Positions 8,651 through 48,758 of a stretch of 49,069 nt of DNA are shown piece by piece. Numbering within the stretch: the stretch's first letter is position 1; every line of letters starts with the position of its first letter. Where the stretch lies: the NCBI GenBank assembly GCA_025456015.1, contig JALOLK010000003.1:1-49069 (forward strand), written 5' to 3'. The position numbers and the translations under genes were made by a program. This DNA is from Candidatus Nanopelagicales bacterium. Its GTDB lineage: Bacteria; Actinomycetota; Actinomycetes; S36-B12; CAIYMF01. Below the pieces are notes generated by a model that ran no database searches, was not told the DNA's origin, and saw only the letters and a list, made by a program, of their open reading frames with translations.

Positions 8651-9486
8651 GCACGGTGCTGACCCCCGTCGTCGAGGTGCCGGCGCCAGCGCGCCCCGGC
8701 GCCGGGCTGCCCGGGCGCGCCTGGGCCTGGGCGTGGCCCAAGCTGCTGGCCATCGGCCTGGTCCTGGCCGTCTGGGAGGCCCTGGTGTGGACGGGCTGGC
8801 GGCCCGAGTACGTGCTGCCGGGCCCGGCCACCGTGCTCGCCGCGCTCGCCGAGATGCTCGGCACGCCCAAGTTCTGGCAGGCGGTGGCCACGACGCTGAC
8901 CCGCGCGGTCATCGGCTTCGCCGTCGCGCTGGTGGTGGGCACCCTCGTCGGCATCCTCGTGGCGCGCATCCGGCCGCTGCGGCTGGCGGTCGGGGCGCTC
9001 ATCACCGGCCTGCAGACCATGCCCAGCATCTCCTGGTTCCCCCTGGCGATCCTGCTGTTCGGCCTCAACGAGCGCGCCATCATGTTCGTGGTCGTGCTCG
9101 GGGCGGCGCCCAGCATCGCCAACGGCGTGATCTCGGGCATCGATCACGTCCCGCCGGCATTCACCCGGTTGGGCCGGGTGCTCGGCGCGGGGCCCCTGGC
9201 CCAGTACCGCTTCATCACCCTTCCGGCGGCGTTGCCCGCGTACGTGGCGGGGCTCACGCAGGGGTGGGCGTTCGCGTGGCGCAGCCTCATGGCCGGCGAG
9301 CTGCTCGTGATCATCGCGGGTCGCCCCTCGCTCGGCGCCAACCTGGAGTTCGCCCGGCAGTTCTCGCAGGCCGACCGGCTGCTGGCCACGATGCTCGTGG
9401 TGCTGGTGATCGGCATGGTGGTGGACGGGGTGTTCGCCGCTGCGTCGCGACGGATCCGCCGGCGGTGGGGCCTCTCGGAGGCGTGA
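8647..9486 (+). CDS. ABC transporter permease (SsuC/TauC-like)
   Basis: BPD_transp_1-type protein GLQTMPSISWFPLAILLFGLNERAIMFVVVLGAAPSIANGVISGI; ATGA overlap; in frame with ORF 7777..9486. Confidence 0.92.
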   Translation: MSTVLTPVVEVPAPARPGAGLPGRAWAWAWPKLLAIGLVLAVWEALVWTGWRPEYVLPGPATVLAALAEMLGTPKFWQAVATTLTRAVIGFAVALVVGTLVGILVARIRPLRLAVGALITGLQTMPSISWFPLAILLFGLNERAIMFVVVLGAAPSIANGVISGIDHVPPAFTRLGRVLGAGPLAQYRFITLPAALPAYVAGLTQGWAFAWRSLMAGELLVIIAGRPSLGANLEFARQFSQADRLLATMLVVLVIGMVVDGVFAAASRRIRRRWGLSEA

Positions 9487-18525: not shown

Positions 18526-21264
18526 TCACCCCGCCGTCGCGCTGGGTGCCGTGGTGCGCCGGCGCCGCCACCACTTCTCCAGCTCCACGGCGACGCCGAA
18601 GACCAGGGCCAGGGCGATGCACGTGCCCCACTGCGCGTCCGTGAGCTCGGTGGTGCGCAGCCAGTCCTGGAGGAACCCCACCTCCGTGGAGGCGATCGTG
18701 ATCGCCACGCCGAGCAGGGTGAGCAGCACGGAGGGCACCAGCGGTCGGGTGAGCACCGAGGCGGTGGTCCGGCGCATCGTCAGGCCGGCCAGGGCGGTGC
18801 CCAGGCCCATCACGGCGTAGGCCATGGTCACCGAGACGGTGGGCACCTCGCTGGAGGGCGTGTCCGGGCCGAGCAGCAGCGGCAGCAGCGACAGCACCCC
18901 GAGCAGCACGCCCAGGCTGATCCAGCGCACGCCGGTGCTGCGGTTGAAGATCCGCTCGGCCGGGTTGCGCGGGGGCAGGTCCATGAGCCCGGGCTCGGCC
19001 TCGTCGATCGTGATGATGATGACCGGGATCACGGCGAGCGTGAAGTTGAGGAACAGCACCTGCAGCGGCAGCAGCGCCACCCCGCCGTTGACGTTGAGCA
19101 TGGTGGCGAGCAGGAACATGCTCACCAGGCCGAACAGCTGGGTGAGCTGGTAGCCGATGTAGGCCACGATGCGGGCGTAGATGCCCCGGCCGAGCTCGAC
19201 GGCATGCACGAGCGTGGCGAAGTTGTCGTCGGTGAGGATCATCTTCGCAGCCTGCTTGGACACCTCCGAGCCGCTGCCCATCGCCACCCCGATGTCGGCC
19301 TGCTTGAGCGCGGCGGCGTCGTTCACGGCATCACCGGTCATCGCCACGACGTCGCCGCGGGCCTGCATGACCTGCACGAGGCGCAGCTTGTCCTGTGGCG
19401 AGACCCGGCCGAAGACGTGCAGCTCGGGCAGCTGGCGCTCGAGCGTGGCGTCGTCGGTCCGGGCGAACTCGGTGCCGAGCATGCCGCCGGGGCCCAGGCC
19501 CAGCTCGCCGGCGATCGCCTGCGCGGTCACCAGGTGGTCGCCGGTGATCATGCGCACGTCGATGCCGGCGCGGTGGGCCACCCGGACCGCCTCGATCGCC
19601 TCCGGGCGCAGCGGGTCGATGATGCCGACCAGGCCCAGCAGGACGAGGTCCTCGACGGCGGCCATCGGGTCGCCCGCCACGGCGTCGGCCTGCTCGACCG
19701 CCATCGCCCGCACGGCCAGGGCCAGCACGCGCAGCCCGTGCTCGCCCAGCCGTTCGTTCGCCCGGTCCACCGCGTCGCGCACCTGCTCCAGCGGCACCGC
19801 CGTGCCGTCGGCGGCCAGCGCTCGCGTGCACCGGGCGAGCACGACGTCGGGGCCGCCCTTCACGAGGCCGACCAGCCGCTGCTGCCCCTCGTACGGCGCC
19901 TCGTGGAAGGTCGCCATGAACTTGTAGGTCGAGTCGAAGGGCACCGTGGCCACGCGCGGGTAGGCCTGCCGCGTCTGCTCCACCGAGACGCCGATCTTCT
20001 GGGCCAGCACCACGACGGCGGCCTCCGTGGGATCGCCGACGACCTCGCCGGAGCGGCTCACCGTGGCGTCGCTGGCCAGGGCCGAGACGTAGGCCAGCGG
20101 GGTGAGGTCCACGGCCGGCGCCCCGGCCACCCCGCGGATCGTCCCGGTCCAGGCGTAGCCCTCGCCGTCCACCTCGTACCAGCTGCCCGCGTAGTACACG
20201 GCACGCGCGGTCATCTCGTTGAGGGTCAGCGTGCCGGTCTTGTCGGTGTTGATCTGGCTGGTCGCGCCGAGTGTCTCGACGTCGCTGAGGTTGCGCACGA
20301 TCGCCTTGGCCCTGGCCAGCTGCTGAGCCCCCATGGCCAGCATCGACTGCACGAACGTGGGCATGCCGGTCGGGATCGCCGAGACCGCCATCGACACCCC
20401 GAGCAGCATGAGCGCCTCGAAGCTCAGGCCCCGGACCAGGCCCACGACGAGGATCAGCGCCAGCGTCGCCCAGGCGACGATCGCGATCTTCCCGGTGAGG
20501 TCGTCGAGTTGGCGCTGCAGCGGCGAGCGGGTGCGCGAGACCCCGCTGAGCATCGAGGCGATCCGGCCCACCTCGGTGGCCATGCCGGTCGCGGTCACCA
20601 CCATGGTGGCCGTCCCCCGGGTCACCGAGGTGTTCTGGAAGAGCATGTCGCTGCGGTCGCCCAGCGGGATGTCGTCACCGACGAGGGCCTCGGCGCTCTT
20701 GCCCACCGGGACGCTCTCGCCGGTGAGGGCGGCCTCCTGGGCCTCGAGGGTGGCGGACTCCAGGATGCGCCCGTCCGCGGGCACGATGTCGCCGGCCTCC
20801 ACCTGCACGATGTCGCCGGGCACCAGGTCGGCAGCCGGGATCAGCAGGACCACGCGGTCGCGGATCACCCGGGCCTGGGGGACCTGCAGGCTGGCCAGCG
20901 CGTCCACGCTGGCGCGCGCCTTGAGCTCCTGGTTGGTGCCCATCACGACGTTGAGCAGGATCAGGGCGACCACCACGGCGGCTGTCGAGCCCTGCCCGAT
21001 CAGGACGCTGACCACCGCGACGGCGACGAGCATGAGCGTCATCGGCTCCATGAGCTGCCCCAGGGCCACCCGGAGCACGGAGGGCTTGGCCTCCTGGCGC
21101 AGGGCGTTCGGGCCGACCCGGGCCAGCCGCTGGGCGGCCTCGGCCGTGGACAGGCCCATCGCCCGGTCGCTGCCCAGGCGCTCGAGGGCGGCCCCGGGCT
21201 CGAGCAGGTGCCAGGCGACCTCGTCGCCGGTCAGGGGGCTGGGGGACTCGATGACCTGGCTCAT
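18526..21264 (-). CDS. Cation-translocating P-type ATPase (P2-like), divergent cation site
   Basis: INTDKTGTLTLNEM phosphorylation site, TGES, MITGDH, MTGDAVNDAAALKQADIGVAMG; ~10 TM. Confidence 0.93.
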   Translation of the reverse strand: MSQVIESPSPLTGDEVAWHLLEPGAALERLGSDRAMGLSTAEAAQRLARVGPNALRQEAKPSVLRVALGQLMEPMTLMLVAVAVVSVLIGQGSTAAVVVALILLNVVMGTNQELKARASVDALASLQVPQARVIRDRVVLLIPAADLVPGDIVQVEAGDIVPADGRILESATLEAQEAALTGESVPVGKSAEALVGDDIPLGDRSDMLFQNTSVTRGTATMVVTATGMATEVGRIASMLSGVSRTRSPLQRQLDDLTGKIAIVAWATLALILVVGLVRGLSFEALMLLGVSMAVSAIPTGMPTFVQSMLAMGAQQLARAKAIVRNLSDVETLGATSQINTDKTGTLTLNEMTARAVYYAGSWYEVDGEGYAWTGTIRGVAGAPAVDLTPLAYVSALASDATVSRSGEVVGDPTEAAVVVLAQKIGVSVEQTRQAYPRVATVPFDSTYKFMATFHEAPYEGQQRLVGLVKGGPDVVLARCTRALAADGTAVPLEQVRDAVDRANERLGEHGLRVLALAVRAMAVEQADAVAGDPMAAVEDLVLLGLVGIIDPLRPEAIEAVRVAHRAGIDVRMITGDHLVTAQAIAGELGLGPGGMLGTEFARTDDATLERQLPELHVFGRVSPQDKLRLVQVMQARGDVVAMTGDAVNDAAALKQADIGVAMGSGSEVSKQAAKMILTDDNFATLVHAVELGRGIYARIVAYIGYQLTQLFGLVSMFLLATMLNVNGGVALLPLQVLFLNFTLAVIPVIIITIDEAEPGLMDLPPRNPAERIFNRSTGVRWISLGVLLGVLSLLPLLLGPDTPSSEVPTVSVTMAYAVMGLGTALAGLTMRRTTASVLTRPLVPSVLLTLLGVAITIASTEVGFLQDWLRTTELTDAQWGTCIALALVFGVAVELEKWWRRRRTTAPSATAG

Positions 21265-42172: not shown

Positions 42173-42973
42173 ATGGGGTCGCAGCGACAGCGGGCGCGGT
42201 CCGCGCCAGTCGGAGCCGGGGCTCAGGGGGCAGCCGTCACCTACGACGCGCTGCTCGACGAGGGCCGCACGCTGTACCCGGGGGTGCGCATCGGCCGGCC
42301 CGGCCGATCGCGCGGCTATTGGGCCATGATCACCGCCCTGCGGCTGCTCCGGGTGCGGTACCACGTCCACCTGCAGGGGGCCCGCCACGTGGCCCCCGGG
42401 CCCGCGATCCTCGTGGGCAACCACGTGCACCTGCTCGACCCCGTCATGGTGGTGATGTCGACGTGGTGGCGGGTCAGCGCGTTCACCAAGGTGGAGGCGT
42501 TCGAGGGCAGGGGAGCCGCGTTCTTCCGGATCATGGGGCAGATCCCGCTACGTCGCGGAGACCCCGCCTCGACGGCGTGGGCGATGGCGATGTCGCGCCA
42601 GGCCCTGGCCCACGGCGGGATGCTCGGGATCTACCCGGAGGGCACCCGCTCGCCGGACCCGGGGGCGCTGCACCGGCTGCACAAGCGCGTCCTGATCCCG
42701 GTGCTGCAGGCCAACCCCGAGGTGCCCGTGCACGCCGTGACCACGGCATACCGGCGCCGGGGCCGGTGGCGCCGCGTCGAGGTCTCGGTGCGGGTCTCCG
42801 AGCCGCTGGCGCTGCCCGTGGGCACCGCGGACGCGCAGGAGGTGGCCGATCGGATGCGCGACGCCCTGCTCGCCCTGGGCGGCCAGCGCTACGTGGACCG
42901 CTACGCCCGCGACGTCAAGCGCGAGCTGCGCGCGGTCCGGGCCGGTGCGGGGGCGCGCCACCAGCACGGTTGA
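42173..42973 (+). CDS. 1-acyl-sn-glycerol-3-phosphate acyltransferase family protein
   Basis: NHVHLLDPVMV (NHx4D), LGIYPEGTRSPD, PVHAVTTAYRRRG. Confidence 0.88.
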   Translation: MGSQRQRARSAPVGAGAQGAAVTYDALLDEGRTLYPGVRIGRPGRSRGYWAMITALRLLRVRYHVHLQGARHVAPGPAILVGNHVHLLDPVMVVMSTWWRVSAFTKVEAFEGRGAAFFRIMGQIPLRRGDPASTAWAMAMSRQALAHGGMLGIYPEGTRSPDPGALHRLHKRVLIPVLQANPEVPVHAVTTAYRRRGRWRRVEVSVRVSEPLALPVGTADAQEVADRMRDALLALGGQRYVDRYARDVKRELRAVRAGAGARHQHG

Positions 42974-43028
42974 TGGTTCAAGCGTTTGCTGTCACCATCA
43001 CCCCACGGACGAGGCCGGGGAGGTGCGG

Positions 43029-43820
43029 GTGGACGACGTGCGCGCGATCGCGGCGGGGCAGGGCGGCCCCTTCGACCTCATCGACGGCCTGCCCGTGCAC
43101 CCGCTCGTGGTGCACGGCGCCGTGGTGCTCGTGCCGCTGGCGGCGCTGGGCCTGGTGCTCATGGCGGTCTGGCCCCGGTTCTCCCGCCGGCACGGTTGGC
43201 TCGTCGTGGCACTGGCGGTCGTGGCGGCGGGCGCCGCGGTGGTCTCGGTGCGCTCCGGCGAGGCGTTCCAGGAGCGGGTCGGCGAGCCCGGCTTCGACCA
43301 CGCCGAGCTCGGCGAGGTGCTGCCCTGGCTCGCCGGCGGGCTGGCGCTGGCGGCACTGGTGCTCTGGCTGGTCGACCGACGCGGTGGGGGCGATGCGTGG
43401 GACGACGGCGCGCCGCGACCCCGTGGCGGGGTCCTGCGGCTGCTCGTGGCCGTCGTCGCCATGCTCGTCGCGCTGGCCAACGTGGTGTGGGTCGCCCGCG
43501 TGGGGCACTCCGGCGCCCAGTCGGTGTGGCTCGACGAGGTCAGCGACGGGGGCACCGATGACGACGGCGGCGCCGAGGTGCCGGCCGCGACGTTCACCGA
43601 GGCGCAGGTCGCGCAACGCGACGACGCCGCCGCGTGCTGGACCATCGTCGGCGGCGTGGTCTACGACCTGACCGAGTGGATCGAGCGGCACCCGGGCGGC
43701 CGGGCGCCGATCGAGTCCCTGTGCGGCACCGACGGCACGGTGCTCTTCACCGCCCAGCACGAGGGTCAGGAGGAGCCGGCCGAGGAGCTCGCGGAGTACG
43801 CGATCGGGCGGCTGGCCTGA
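43029..43820 (+). CDS. DUF2231 membrane domain fused to cytochrome b5-like heme domain
   Basis: GLPVHPLVVHGAVVLVPLAALGLVLM; CWTIVGGVVYDLTEWIERHPGGRAPIESLCGTDGTVLFTAQHEGQ; GGGGAGG-like RBS before GTG. Confidence 0.88.
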   Translation: MDDVRAIAAGQGGPFDLIDGLPVHPLVVHGAVVLVPLAALGLVLMAVWPRFSRRHGWLVVALAVVAAGAAVVSVRSGEAFQERVGEPGFDHAELGEVLPWLAGGLALAALVLWLVDRRGGGDAWDDGAPRPRGGVLRLLVAVVAMLVALANVVWVARVGHSGAQSVWLDEVSDGGTDDDGGAEVPAATFTEAQVAQRDDAAACWTIVGGVVYDLTEWIERHPGGRAPIESLCGTDGTVLFTAQHEGQEEPAEELAEYAIGRLA

Positions 43821-44098: not shown

Positions 44099-44163
44099 GG
44101 GACCCAAGTCCCAGCCGCACGGCCGTGCATCCCGCCGCTGGCTGGCGGGGTGACCTTCGGCCC
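44099..44163. promoter_or_regulatory. Two DosR/DevR-box-like elements
   Basis: GGGACCCAAGTCCC (44099-44112; 12/14 to GGGACTWWAGTCCC) and GTGACCTTCGGCCC (44150-44163; 10/14); centres 51 bp apart. Confidence 0.55.
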
Positions 44164-44225
44164 TCCCCTCCGGCCCGCCGAGGGGCGTTGCATGGGGAGC
44201 GCCCGCGCATCCCGAGGAGGCCGCC

Positions 44226-45539
44226 ATGGGCCACACGCTCGCCGATCCCGACCTCGCCTACCACCGGCTCCAGCAGCGCCTGGACCGCATGCCGACCGGC
44301 GCCCCGGACTCCGCGGCGTTCCAGCGGATCCTGCGGCTGCTGTTCACGCCCGCCGAGGCCGAGCTGGCCGCCCGCATGCCCACGATCTGCCCGCTCGAGG
44401 TGCTCGCGCAGCGCAGCGGCATCCCGGCCGAGGAGCTGGACCCGATCGTCACCGAGATGGCCCGCAAGGGTCTCGTCGTCGACCTCGAGCAGCGCGGCCG
44501 TCGCTACGTGGCGCTCGCGCCGGTGGTCATCGGGTTCTTCGAGTTCACGTTCATGCGGGTGCGCGACGACGCGCCCATCGAGGAGCTGTCCGAGCTGTTC
44601 GAGGAGTACATGTTCGACGGGGCCGGCGAGTTCGCGCACGCGGTGTTCGCCGGCAGCACGCAGATCGGCCGCTCGCTGGTGCGCGAGGAGGCGCTGCCCG
44701 AGGACCCCCAGGTCGAGGTGCTCGACTGGGAGCTGGCCACCCACATCGTCGGTGAGGCGCCGAGCGTCGCGGTCTCCGAGTGCCCCTGCCGCACGCACGC
44801 CGCACTCCAGGGGCGGGCCTGTGGGGCGCCCACGCGCACCTGCCTCACCCTCGGCGCCAGCGCCGACGCGCTGGTCCGCGCCGGCATCGCCGAGCCCATC
44901 AGCAACGCCGAGGGCCTGGCCATCCTGGCGGAGGCGAAGGCCGCCGGTCTGGCCCAGACCGCGGACAACGTCAAGCACGGGGTGGGGTACATCTGCAACT
45001 GCTGCGGGTGCTGCTGCGGGATGATGCAGTCGATCCGGCGGCATGGGATCACCGGGGCCATCGTGTCCTCGAACTGGGTCGCGCACGTCGACCTCGACAT
45101 GTGCCGCGGCTGCAAGAAGTGCTACCGCGCCTGCCCGGCCGACGCCATCACCATGGTCGACAACGAGGGCCAGGGCCTGCGCAAGTACTGGGCCATCGTC
45201 GACCCCGAGAAGTGCCTCGGGTGCGGGGTCTGCGACGAGCGGTGCCGGTGGGGCGCCCACACCATGGTGCCCCGCGAGGCGCGCGTCTTCACCCCCGAGA
45301 ACACCTTCGACCGGATGGTCACGATGGCGATCGAGCGGGGCAAGCTCGGGGAGCTGCTCGTCGACACGCTCGACGGCGCGGGCCCGCACGCGCTGTCCCG
45401 GGCGCTGGCGCTGCTCGTCGAGCACCCGCCGGCGGTGGCCGCTCGCGCCGTCGAGCCCCTGCACTCGGTGTTCCTGCGCGGCCTGCTCGCCGTGGCGCAC
45501 GCGACCGCCCGCAGCGGGGCGGCCAGCACCCCGGTCTGA
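44226..45539 (+). CDS. Cysteine-rich 4Fe-4S dicluster protein with N-terminal helical domain
   Basis: CPCRTH...CGAPTRTC, CNCCGCCCGMM, CRGCKKCYRACPADAI, CLGCGVCDERCRWGA; RBS GAGGAGG. Confidence 0.88.
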   Translation: MGHTLADPDLAYHRLQQRLDRMPTGAPDSAAFQRILRLLFTPAEAELAARMPTICPLEVLAQRSGIPAEELDPIVTEMARKGLVVDLEQRGRRYVALAPVVIGFFEFTFMRVRDDAPIEELSELFEEYMFDGAGEFAHAVFAGSTQIGRSLVREEALPEDPQVEVLDWELATHIVGEAPSVAVSECPCRTHAALQGRACGAPTRTCLTLGASADALVRAGIAEPISNAEGLAILAEAKAAGLAQTADNVKHGVGYICNCCGCCCGMMQSIRRHGITGAIVSSNWVAHVDLDMCRGCKKCYRACPADAITMVDNEGQGLRKYWAIVDPEKCLGCGVCDERCRWGAHTMVPREARVFTPENTFDRMVTMAIERGKLGELLVDTLDGAGPHALSRALALLVEHPPAVAARAVEPLHSVFLRGLLAVAHATARSGAASTPV

Positions 45540-45616
45540 TCCCTGGGCGTCCGAGCCGGTCGCGGCAGCCCGCCCGCCCGCGCGCCCCGGGCCCCGGATT
45601 GCGGCACGCTGGGCCC

Positions 45617-47048
45617 ATGGGCGAGGAGGTGGCCTCCCGCGGGTTCACCCGCGAGGACCGGCAGCGCTACCGCGACAAGGTCCACCGCTGCCTCGACGCT
45701 GACCGGCATGGAGGTCGAGCTCAACCTCGTGGACGCCGAGGGCCGGCCGGCCCTGCGCAACGCCGAGGTGCTGGCCCGCATCGACGACCCGGCCTTCGTC
45801 CAGGAGCTCGGGCGCTTCAACCTGGAGATCAACATCCCGCCGCAGAGCCTCGTCGGGGACGGGGCGGCCCGCTACGAGCGGCAGGTGCGCGAGCAGCTGA
45901 ACGCGGCGGACGCCCGTGCCCACGCCGAGGGCGCCGGGATCATGATGGTCGGGATCCTGCCGACCCTCACGCCCGAGCACATGACCCCCGAGGCGATCAG
46001 CAGCAACTCCCGGTACGCCCTGCTCGACGAGCAGCTCCTGCTGGCCCGGGGCGAGGACCTGCACATCGACATCCGCGGGGCGCACGAGGCGCTGGAGACC
46101 TTCGCCGACTCGATCGCCCCCGAGGCCGCCTGCACCAGCGTCCAGTTCCACCTGCAGGTCAGCCCGGAGGACTTCGCGGACTCCTGGAACGCGGCGCAGT
46201 GCCTGGCCGGCGCGCAGGTGGCGCTCGGGGCCAACGCGCCCTACTTCCTGGGTCGTGAGCTGTGGCGGGAGACCCGCATCGCGCTGTTCACCCAGGCCAC
46301 GGACACGCGGCCCGCCGAGATGAAGGCCCAGGGCGTGCGCCCCAGGGTCTGGTTCGGCGAGCGCTGGATCACCAGCGTGTTCGACCTGTTCGAGGAGAAC
46401 CTGCGCTACTTCCCGGCGCTGCTGCCCCTCGTCGACGACGAGGATCCGGTCGCGGTGCTGGATTCGGGGCGGATCCCCGCACTGCACGAGCTGCGCCTGC
46501 ACAACGGGACCGTCTGGCGCTGGAACCGGCCCGTGTACGACGTGGTCGCTGGGGTGCCGCACCTGCGCGTGGAGAACCGCGTGCTGCCCTCCGGCCCGAC
46601 CGTGGTCGACATCCTCGCGAACGGCGCCTTCTACTTCGGCGCGCTGCGGGCGCTGGCCACCGAGGAGCGGCCGGTGTGGTCACGCATGTCGTTCGGCGCC
46701 GCCGACGACAACTTCCAGGCGGCGGCACAGCGCGGGCTCGACGCCGTCACGTACTGGCCCGGGATGGGGGAGGTGCCCGTGAGCGAGCTCGTGCTGCGCC
46801 GGCTGCTGCCCCTGGCCCATCGGGGCCTGCGCGAGTGGGGGGTCGACCACGACATCCGGGAACGGCTGCTCGGCATCATCGAGGGTCGGTGCGCCTCCGG
46901 GCGCAACGGTGCCCGCTGGCAGGTGGACAGCGTGCACGCCCTCGAGTCGCGCGGCCTCGATCGCTGGGAGGCGCTGCGCCGGATGACCCAGGAGTACCTG
47001 GTGCGGATGCACACCAACGAGCCGGTGCACACCTGGGAGCCGGTCTGA
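45617..47048 (+). pseudogene. GCS2-type glutamate-cysteine ligase family gene with frameshifting N-terminal deletion; intact frame 45708-47048
   Basis: MGEEVASRGFTREDRQRYRDKVHRCLDA in the frame of 45617, then GMEVELNLVDAEG...EACTSVQFHLQVSPEDF...WFGERWITSVFDLFEENLRYFP in the frame of 45708 (+1 offset). Confidence 0.65.
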
Positions 47049-47052
47049 TCGC

Positions 47053-47766
47053 TCAGCTGTCGTAGGGATTGGCCGGCGCCGCGGTGGGCACGGCCGACTC
47101 GACCGCCAGGCGCGGGATGGCGCCCTGAACGCCAGTGTCCCCGCCCGGTTGCCAGACCCCCACGACCTCCACCCAGGTGTCGGCGGGCAGCTCGGGGGCG
47201 CCCTCAGCCCGCACCTTGAGGACGTACGCGTCCGCGGCGCAGCACGCCAGGCCCAGCCTGGTGAGCTGCCAGCCGCCAGCCTCGTCCGGGCTGACGAACC
47301 CGACGAGCCGGACGCGCTGGCCGGCCAGCGTGCGGCCGTCGTCCCAGATCGCCCTGCTGACGAAGTCGCCGACGGACAGGTCCGCCGGGTCGCCCACCAG
47401 GGGTGGGAAGACCGCGGCGCTCGAGGCGACCGGCGCGATGGCGGGCATCCGCTCGGCGGTGAACGCGCCCAGCGGGGCGGCCGGGACGACGAGCACCGCG
47501 GCGACTGGCAGCAGCAGGCCCCACGCGGCGCGCGGGCCGTGGCCGGCGTGCCCGTGCGCCTCGTGCGCCGTGGCGGGGGACTGCGGGTCCTCACGCAGTG
47601 ACTCCCAGAGGGCCAGCCCGCCGAGCCCGACCAGCACCGCGGCCGCGGCCAGCAGGGCTGGGCCCATCCCCGGCTTCACGTAGTTCAGGTGCAGGTCCGC
47701 CAGGACGACACGGGCCACGACGCCGCCGAAGAGGACCAGGACGATGCCCTGCACGGTGCGGTTCAC
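47053..47766 (-). CDS. TIGR03943/DUF1980 family protein
   Basis: VNRTVQGIVLVLFGGVVARVVLADLHLNYVKPGMGPALL; VRLVGFVSPDE...LGLACCAADAYVLKV; GTGA overlap with the permease. Confidence 0.88.
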   Translation of the reverse strand: MNRTVQGIVLVLFGGVVARVVLADLHLNYVKPGMGPALLAAAAVLVGLGGLALWESLREDPQSPATAHEAHGHAGHGPRAAWGLLLPVAAVLVVPAAPLGAFTAERMPAIAPVASSAAVFPPLVGDPADLSVGDFVSRAIWDDGRTLAGQRVRLVGFVSPDEAGGWQLTRLGLACCAADAYVLKVRAEGAPELPADTWVEVVGVWQPGGDTGVQGAIPRLAVESAVPTAAPANPYDS

Positions 47767-48758
47767 AGCAGGGCCCAGCCGACCAGGGAGGCGCTGGCCA
47801 CGGCCACCGCGAAGGTGGCTGGCGCGAAGCGCTGGGCGAAGGAGCGCCCGAACGCGCCGGTCTGCATGGCCACGAGCTTGAGGTCGACCATCGGACCGAC
47901 CACCATGAACGCCAGCTGCGCCACGGGGTTGAACTGGCTCATGCTCGCCGCCACGAAGGCGTCGGCCTCCGAGCAGATGCACATGACCACCGCGAGCAGC
48001 GCGAGCACGAGCACGGACAGCGCGACCTGACCGGCCAGCGAGTCCAGCCACTGCGCGGGGACCAGGACGTTGATCGCGGCGGCTGTGAGCCCGCCCACCA
48101 CCAGGAAGCCACCGGCGTGCAGGAAGTCGTGGGTGGCCGAGCGGTGGAACGTGACCCAGGGGTTGGGGTGGGCCAGGTGCGCCCGCGAGGGCATCCGGAT
48201 CCACTCCTGGCGGCCCAGCGCGAGCCACAGCCAGCCCATCACGATCGCGGCACCGAGGGAGGCGAGCAGTCGGGCCCACACCATCGCCGGGTCGTTCGGG
48301 AACGCCACCCACGTGGCGGCCAGGACGATCGGGTTGATCGCCGGGGCTGCGAGCAGGAACGTCAGCGCCGCGGCCGGCGCGACGCCCCGGGCCATGAGCC
48401 CCCCGGCGATGGGGACCGACGCGCATTCACAGCCCGGCAGCACGAGGCCCGCGCTGCCCGCGACGGGGACGGCCAGGGCGGGGCGGCGCGGCAGCGCCCG
48501 GCGCACCAGCGACGGCGAGACGAACGCGGTGATGGCCGCGGAGAGCAGCACCCCCAGCACGAGGAACGGCGTGGCCTGCAGCACGATCGACAGGAAGATG
48601 GTGGTGAAGGCCGAGAGCGCGGGCTGGTCGGCCCAGTCGATCAGCCAGCGCTGGCCGATGAGGAACGCGAGGAGCCCGAGGTTGAGCAGCAGCAGCGCCG
48701 AGGGGCGCAGCCCCCGGGGCACCGCCTCCGCGTGCTCGGGGTCGAGGGCCGCGCTCAC
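47763..48758 (-). CDS. DUF318/YraQ-family permease
   Basis: LPGCECASVPIAGGLMARG, VVMCICSEADAFVAASM. Confidence 0.92.
   Translation of the reverse strand: MSAALDPEHAEAVPRGLRPSALLLLNLGLLAFLIGQRWLIDWADQPALSAFTTIFLSIVLQATPFLVLGVLLSAAITAFVSPSLVRRALPRRPALAVPVAGSAGLVLPGCECASVPIAGGLMARGVAPAAALTFLLAAPAINPIVLAATWVAFPNDPAMVWARLLASLGAAIVMGWLWLALGRQEWIRMPSRAHLAHPNPWVTFHRSATHDFLHAGGFLVVGGLTAAAINVLVPAQWLDSLAGQVALSVLVLALLAVVMCICSEADAFVAASMSQFNPVAQLAFMVVGPMVDLKLVAMQTGAFGRSFAQRFAPATFAVAVASASLVGWALL

Follow-up and report, generated by a model that had tools for sequence, protein, structure and literature searches.

In the window, i.e. the whole stretch of 49,069 nucleotides analysed here, a conserved gene of the GCS2 type changes reading frame shortly after its start, which raises the question of whether the break belongs to the organism or to its assembled sequence. 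From ATG 45617, frame 0 encodes MGEEVASRGFTREDRQRYRDKVHRCLD; the conserved continuation, LTGMEVELNLVDAEG, is read in the +1 frame from 45699 onward, contains an ATG at 45708-45710 and is open as far as the stop at 47046-47048 (Table 1). The gene (45617-47048) is present as a single copy in the genome, and automated gene callers would give a 446-aa ORF here. The source genome is a draft assembled from environmental DNA, 2.75 Mb in 163 contigs and 78% complete, of which the window is contig C80; this contig is without Ns and the site of the break lies 3.4 kb from its end. Comparisons were made with a same-genus MAG, Candidatus Nanopelagicales bacterium Prado020 (JALOLH010000058.1), hereafter the sister, whose ortholog is intact, shows 95% protein identity over the full length and adjoins the same ferredoxin-domain gene.

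Table 1. Coordinates in the window of the GCS2-like gene, its parts and its upstream neighbour.
Feature	Position	Strand	Description
Upstream neighbour, 4Fe-4S ferredoxin-domain protein	44226..45539	+	intact; Pfam Fer4_7 and others; syntenic in the sister
Upstream box CACGCT and 6-nt spacer before ATG 45617	45605..45616	+	conserved in the order; probable -10 element of a leaderless-type start
GCS2-like gene, 5' fragment	45617..45698	+	frame 0, MGEEV...HRCLD to the junction; covers residues 1-27 in the alignment with intact homologs
Deletion junction	45696..45699	+	single clean 47-nt gap relative to the sister; 2-bp CG microhomology at 45697-45698
GCS2-like gene, main body	45699..47048	+	+1 frame, LTGMEVELN... 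to the stop; 446-aa ORF from ATG 45708
Internal ATG, Met of GMEVE	45708..45710	+	start of the open ORF made by the frame break; not the natural start

Elsewhere in the neighbourhood, positions 42945-43820 encode a fusion of a DUF2231 membrane domain and a cytochrome b5-like domain. On the minus strand, a 457-aa ORF (47053-48426) holds a TIGR03943-family permease subunit with a DUF1980 C-terminal domain; its listed start is far upstream of the TIGR03943 match and it adjoins a permease-like ORF at 47763-48758.

A 47-nt gap in an otherwise intact gene

The first-pass annotation had proposed that a GCS2-like gene, of which the rest is intact, has its frame broken by the loss of about 50 nt (50 or 53 nt). 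The DNA alignment with the sister bears this out, as it displays one clean 47-nt gap at 45696-45699 with flanks identical at 29/30 positions on each side; hence the approximate size stood, and the two exact lengths exceeded the true one by one or two codons. Opposite 16 codons of the sister (VLARMLREERFDFERP, 48 nt) the window retains a single base, and the breakpoint position is ambiguous by the 2-bp CG. The distance between the CL[D] and G[LM]E[IV]E motifs, which the first-pass annotation had put at roughly 16-18 residues, is 18 residues in 62/62 homologous loci found by motif search, a set that includes a few identical sequences fetched twice. Given this constant spacing, the gap in the window does not reflect chance or natural variation. 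Furthermore, a single continuous HSP (44150-47048) joins window and sister, which argues against a chimeric contig at this site.

The microhomology at the junction was considered as a sign of a biological mechanism and rejected. Indeed, if 47 nt are deleted anywhere in this gene, 20% of positions give at least 2 bp of microhomology by chance, so the CG overlap provides no evidence of such a mechanism. The segment missing from the window holds, in the sister, a perfect inverted repeat of 7 bp around a 7-nt loop (CTCGCGC/GCGCGAG). This hairpin is not present in most other relatives; it is a possible trigger, either of a true deletion or of a polymerase or library error.

The protein family and the start of the gene

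From its sequence, the protein is predicted to be a glutamate-cysteine-ligase-like member of the GCS2 superfamily, and the intact gene would encode a carboxylate-amine ligase of about 492 residues. With the Pfam GCS2 model (PF04107), the window fragment scores 28.2 bits and the sister 32.6, both above the cut-off of 21. The GhExE signature is found as GMEVE (45705-45719), whose G46, E48 and E50 do not vary among 27 aligned homologs. A Foldseek search with a model of the sister protein, of moderate confidence (mean pLDDT 76, pTM 0.81), returned 1r8g, 1tt4, 3ig5 and 2gwc as best matches (probability 1.00), and a GS-type fold as in YbdK and the glutamate-cysteine ligases is predicted accordingly from the model. 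A solved structure close in sequence to the ligase was not found, nor did a literature search retrieve a functional paper on this exact subfamily. In the sister model, residues 12-34 form the first helix and residues 45-54 the first strand; the deletion takes residues 28-43, which comprise the second part of this helix and the linker that leads to the strand. Within this lost segment M32, L33 and F38 are invariant in the 27 homologs.

On the alignments, ATG 45617 is the true start of the gene. A CAnnCT-like (CA(C/G)GCT-like) hexamer stands 6-7 nt before this ATG in 11/11 sequences of the Nanopelagicales group, and 21 of 80 homologs have a [TC]AnnnT hexamer at the same distance, compared to 0-3/80 at control offsets. 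The overall consensus upstream of the ATG in these 80 homologs is G-rich and SD-like. Leaderless starts are known in Actinobacteria and the CACGCT-like box resembles such starts; it is a putative promoter -10 element. As a separate observation, the box at 45605-45616 in this order and the G-rich, SD-like stretch in the consensus of other actinobacterial homologs hint that one ortholog family may have switched between leaderless-type and SD-type starts.

A natural difference in start site, by which the gene would begin at MEVELN and the upstream MGEE... reading would be accidental, agrees with the 446-aa ORF that automated callers would give. Against it, 26 of the 27 upstream residues are the same in the sister and this stretch is conserved throughout Actinobacteria, the box ahead of the ATG shows conservation too, and 80/80 fetched homologs match from residue 1, so that orthologs naturally beginning at MEVELN, the case which the first-pass annotation had named as refuting a deletion, were not encountered. 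The alignments refute this reading and we give it a negligible probability.

Constraint on the remaining gene and other deletions in the draft

An old lesion is expected to show relaxed constraint. Over the remaining gene, dN/dS between window and sister is 0.086, lineage-specific replacements number 9 in the window and 8 in the sister, and none of the window's replacements falls at a position that is invariant in five outgroups. The relaxed constraint outside the lesion that marks a decaying pseudogene is therefore not seen, and since the remainder is without decay, the lesion is either very recent or not in the organism.

About 495 kb of the draft was compared with about 1.1 Mb of the sister, of which about 111 kb could be aligned with the main filter applied; manual resolution did not extend to every multi-gap cluster. 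Within these ~ 111 kb, the draft contains two more sharp intragenic deletions. In rpmE, the gene of ribosomal protein L31 (L293, contig C27, about 8950-9070, minus strand), about 121 nt are missing relative to the sister, which takes the start codon and the first ~ 30 codons. This is the only L31 match in the draft, where the family model was matched only from position 28, in a genome 78% complete whose missing part could hold another rpmE. On contig C21 (L287), at about 2630, a conserved gene lacks 96 nt in frame close to its 3' end, a segment that the sister (L228:16730-18157) keeps. In the sister one comparable break was found, a frame-breaking gap of 7 nt in a P-type cation ATPase (L184) about 400 nt from a contig end; this gene is complete in the window (18526-21264, minus strand), where the gap corresponds to position 20491.

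Several candidates were discarded. Most of the other gaps examined whose length is not a multiple of three lie at gene boundaries or in shadow frames (e.g. rplM/rpsI on C11); gene boundaries also account for the SIMPL/CDP-alcohol transferase gap on C22 and a 32-nt gap on C7. The gap on C23 and a 131-nt gap of the sister (its contig C36) lie in GC-rich stretches that no well-conserved frame spans, and were left out of the count. Scaffold-gap filling was rejected too, as the runs of N are whole contigs under 3 kb that read N and not scaffold gaps.

Origin of the gap and comparison with known systems

The first-pass annotation had left a recent lesion, an assembly error and a restarted gene all open; these can now be ranked, with the assembly error first, the recent lesion second and the restart last. 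We consider that the 47-nt gap is probably an error of the draft assembly or of the underlying DNA library and not a property of the organism. The error is favoured over biology because similar sharp deletions occur in the same draft, one of them in the only detected rpmE; for such a core ribosomal gene, an artefact is the more plausible cause of a lost start. Reads would then not support the junction, and the real gene would be an ordinary intact ligase from ATG 45617. Some points stand against an artefact. A 2-bp join is untypical of graph assembly and a de Bruijn assembler seldom makes a 47-nt deletion in this way; the junction should be present in some read or chimeric fragment; the contig is free of Ns and the site lies 3.4 kb from its end; and the three events come from a limited part of the genome, while a true recent deletion would look alike in this gene. 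A genuine deletion that arose very recently in the strain or population sequenced, i.e. a fresh null allele (pseudogene) too young to decay, is the reading to be weighed most closely against the error, even though we hold it to be unlikely. Short-homology loss by replication slippage or end joining, perhaps aided by the hairpin, would be its mechanism. It accommodates the clean single event with its CG microhomology, the inverted repeat in the sister's missing segment, the intact synteny by which the contig is not chimeric at the site, and purifying selection until now. However, the microhomology weighs little at its chance level, the hairpin is missing from most other relatives, and comparable losses affect other conserved genes of the same assembly, rpmE included.

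It is very improbable that the shortened gene is functional, either through a restart at ATG 45708 or through a +1 ribosomal frameshift giving a protein minus 16 residues. The main frame is indeed fully open and constrained, and by chance the junction sets GACGCT seven bases ahead of ATG 45708, resembling the native CACGCT box. Yet no Shine-Dalgarno sequence was found upstream of this ATG, in agreement with the first-pass annotation, which had seen no obvious ribosome-binding site there, and CTC GAC GCT GAC was not recognised as a slippery sequence. A restart product would lack both the first helix and the invariant Gly of GhExE, a signature that forms part of the Mg/ATP site (PMC2588565); homologs all begin about 46 residues earlier, and among the 62 motif-matched loci no relative has the shortened form. 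Slimmer still are the chances of a natural lineage variant that does without the second half of the first helix and is expressed by leaderless restart at ATG 45708, in which case the deletion itself would have placed the -10-like box ahead of the internal ATG.

If the gap is an error, as we prefer, the locus carries a lesson about data quality, given that callers would annotate a truncated 446-aa ligase and that a survey of this draft could miscount broken genes, the missing start of a ribosomal protein among them. If the deletion is true, the organism would have lost a conserved, uncharacterised actinobacterial ligase in an ordinary, recent event.

Among known systems, the GCS2 family (PF04107), of glutamine-synthetase fold, is the one that the window gene resembles both in its GhExE signature and in a score above the cut-off. 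YbdK (1r8g) is nearest in predicted fold (TM 0.73 by target length), but it is shorter than the ~ 492-residue ligase, which remains far below the NCBIfam cut-off for the YbdK family (TIGR02050, 19.5 bits vs 176.4). It is likewise far below that for EgtA (TIGR03444, 16.4 bits vs 370.8). The Prado020 ortholog (JALOLH010000058.1) is the same gene with the same upstream neighbour, and keeps the 16 codons and the unbroken frame that the window does not. Finally, a survey of 126,564 genomes concluded that many frameshift or stop pseudogenes are assembly errors, with low coverage as a main cause (Cooley and Wright 2024, PMC11017572). The window gene is like these spurious draft-genome pseudogenes in having a single frame-breaking indel in a constrained gene, and differs from them in that its gap is of tens of bases and not of one or two.
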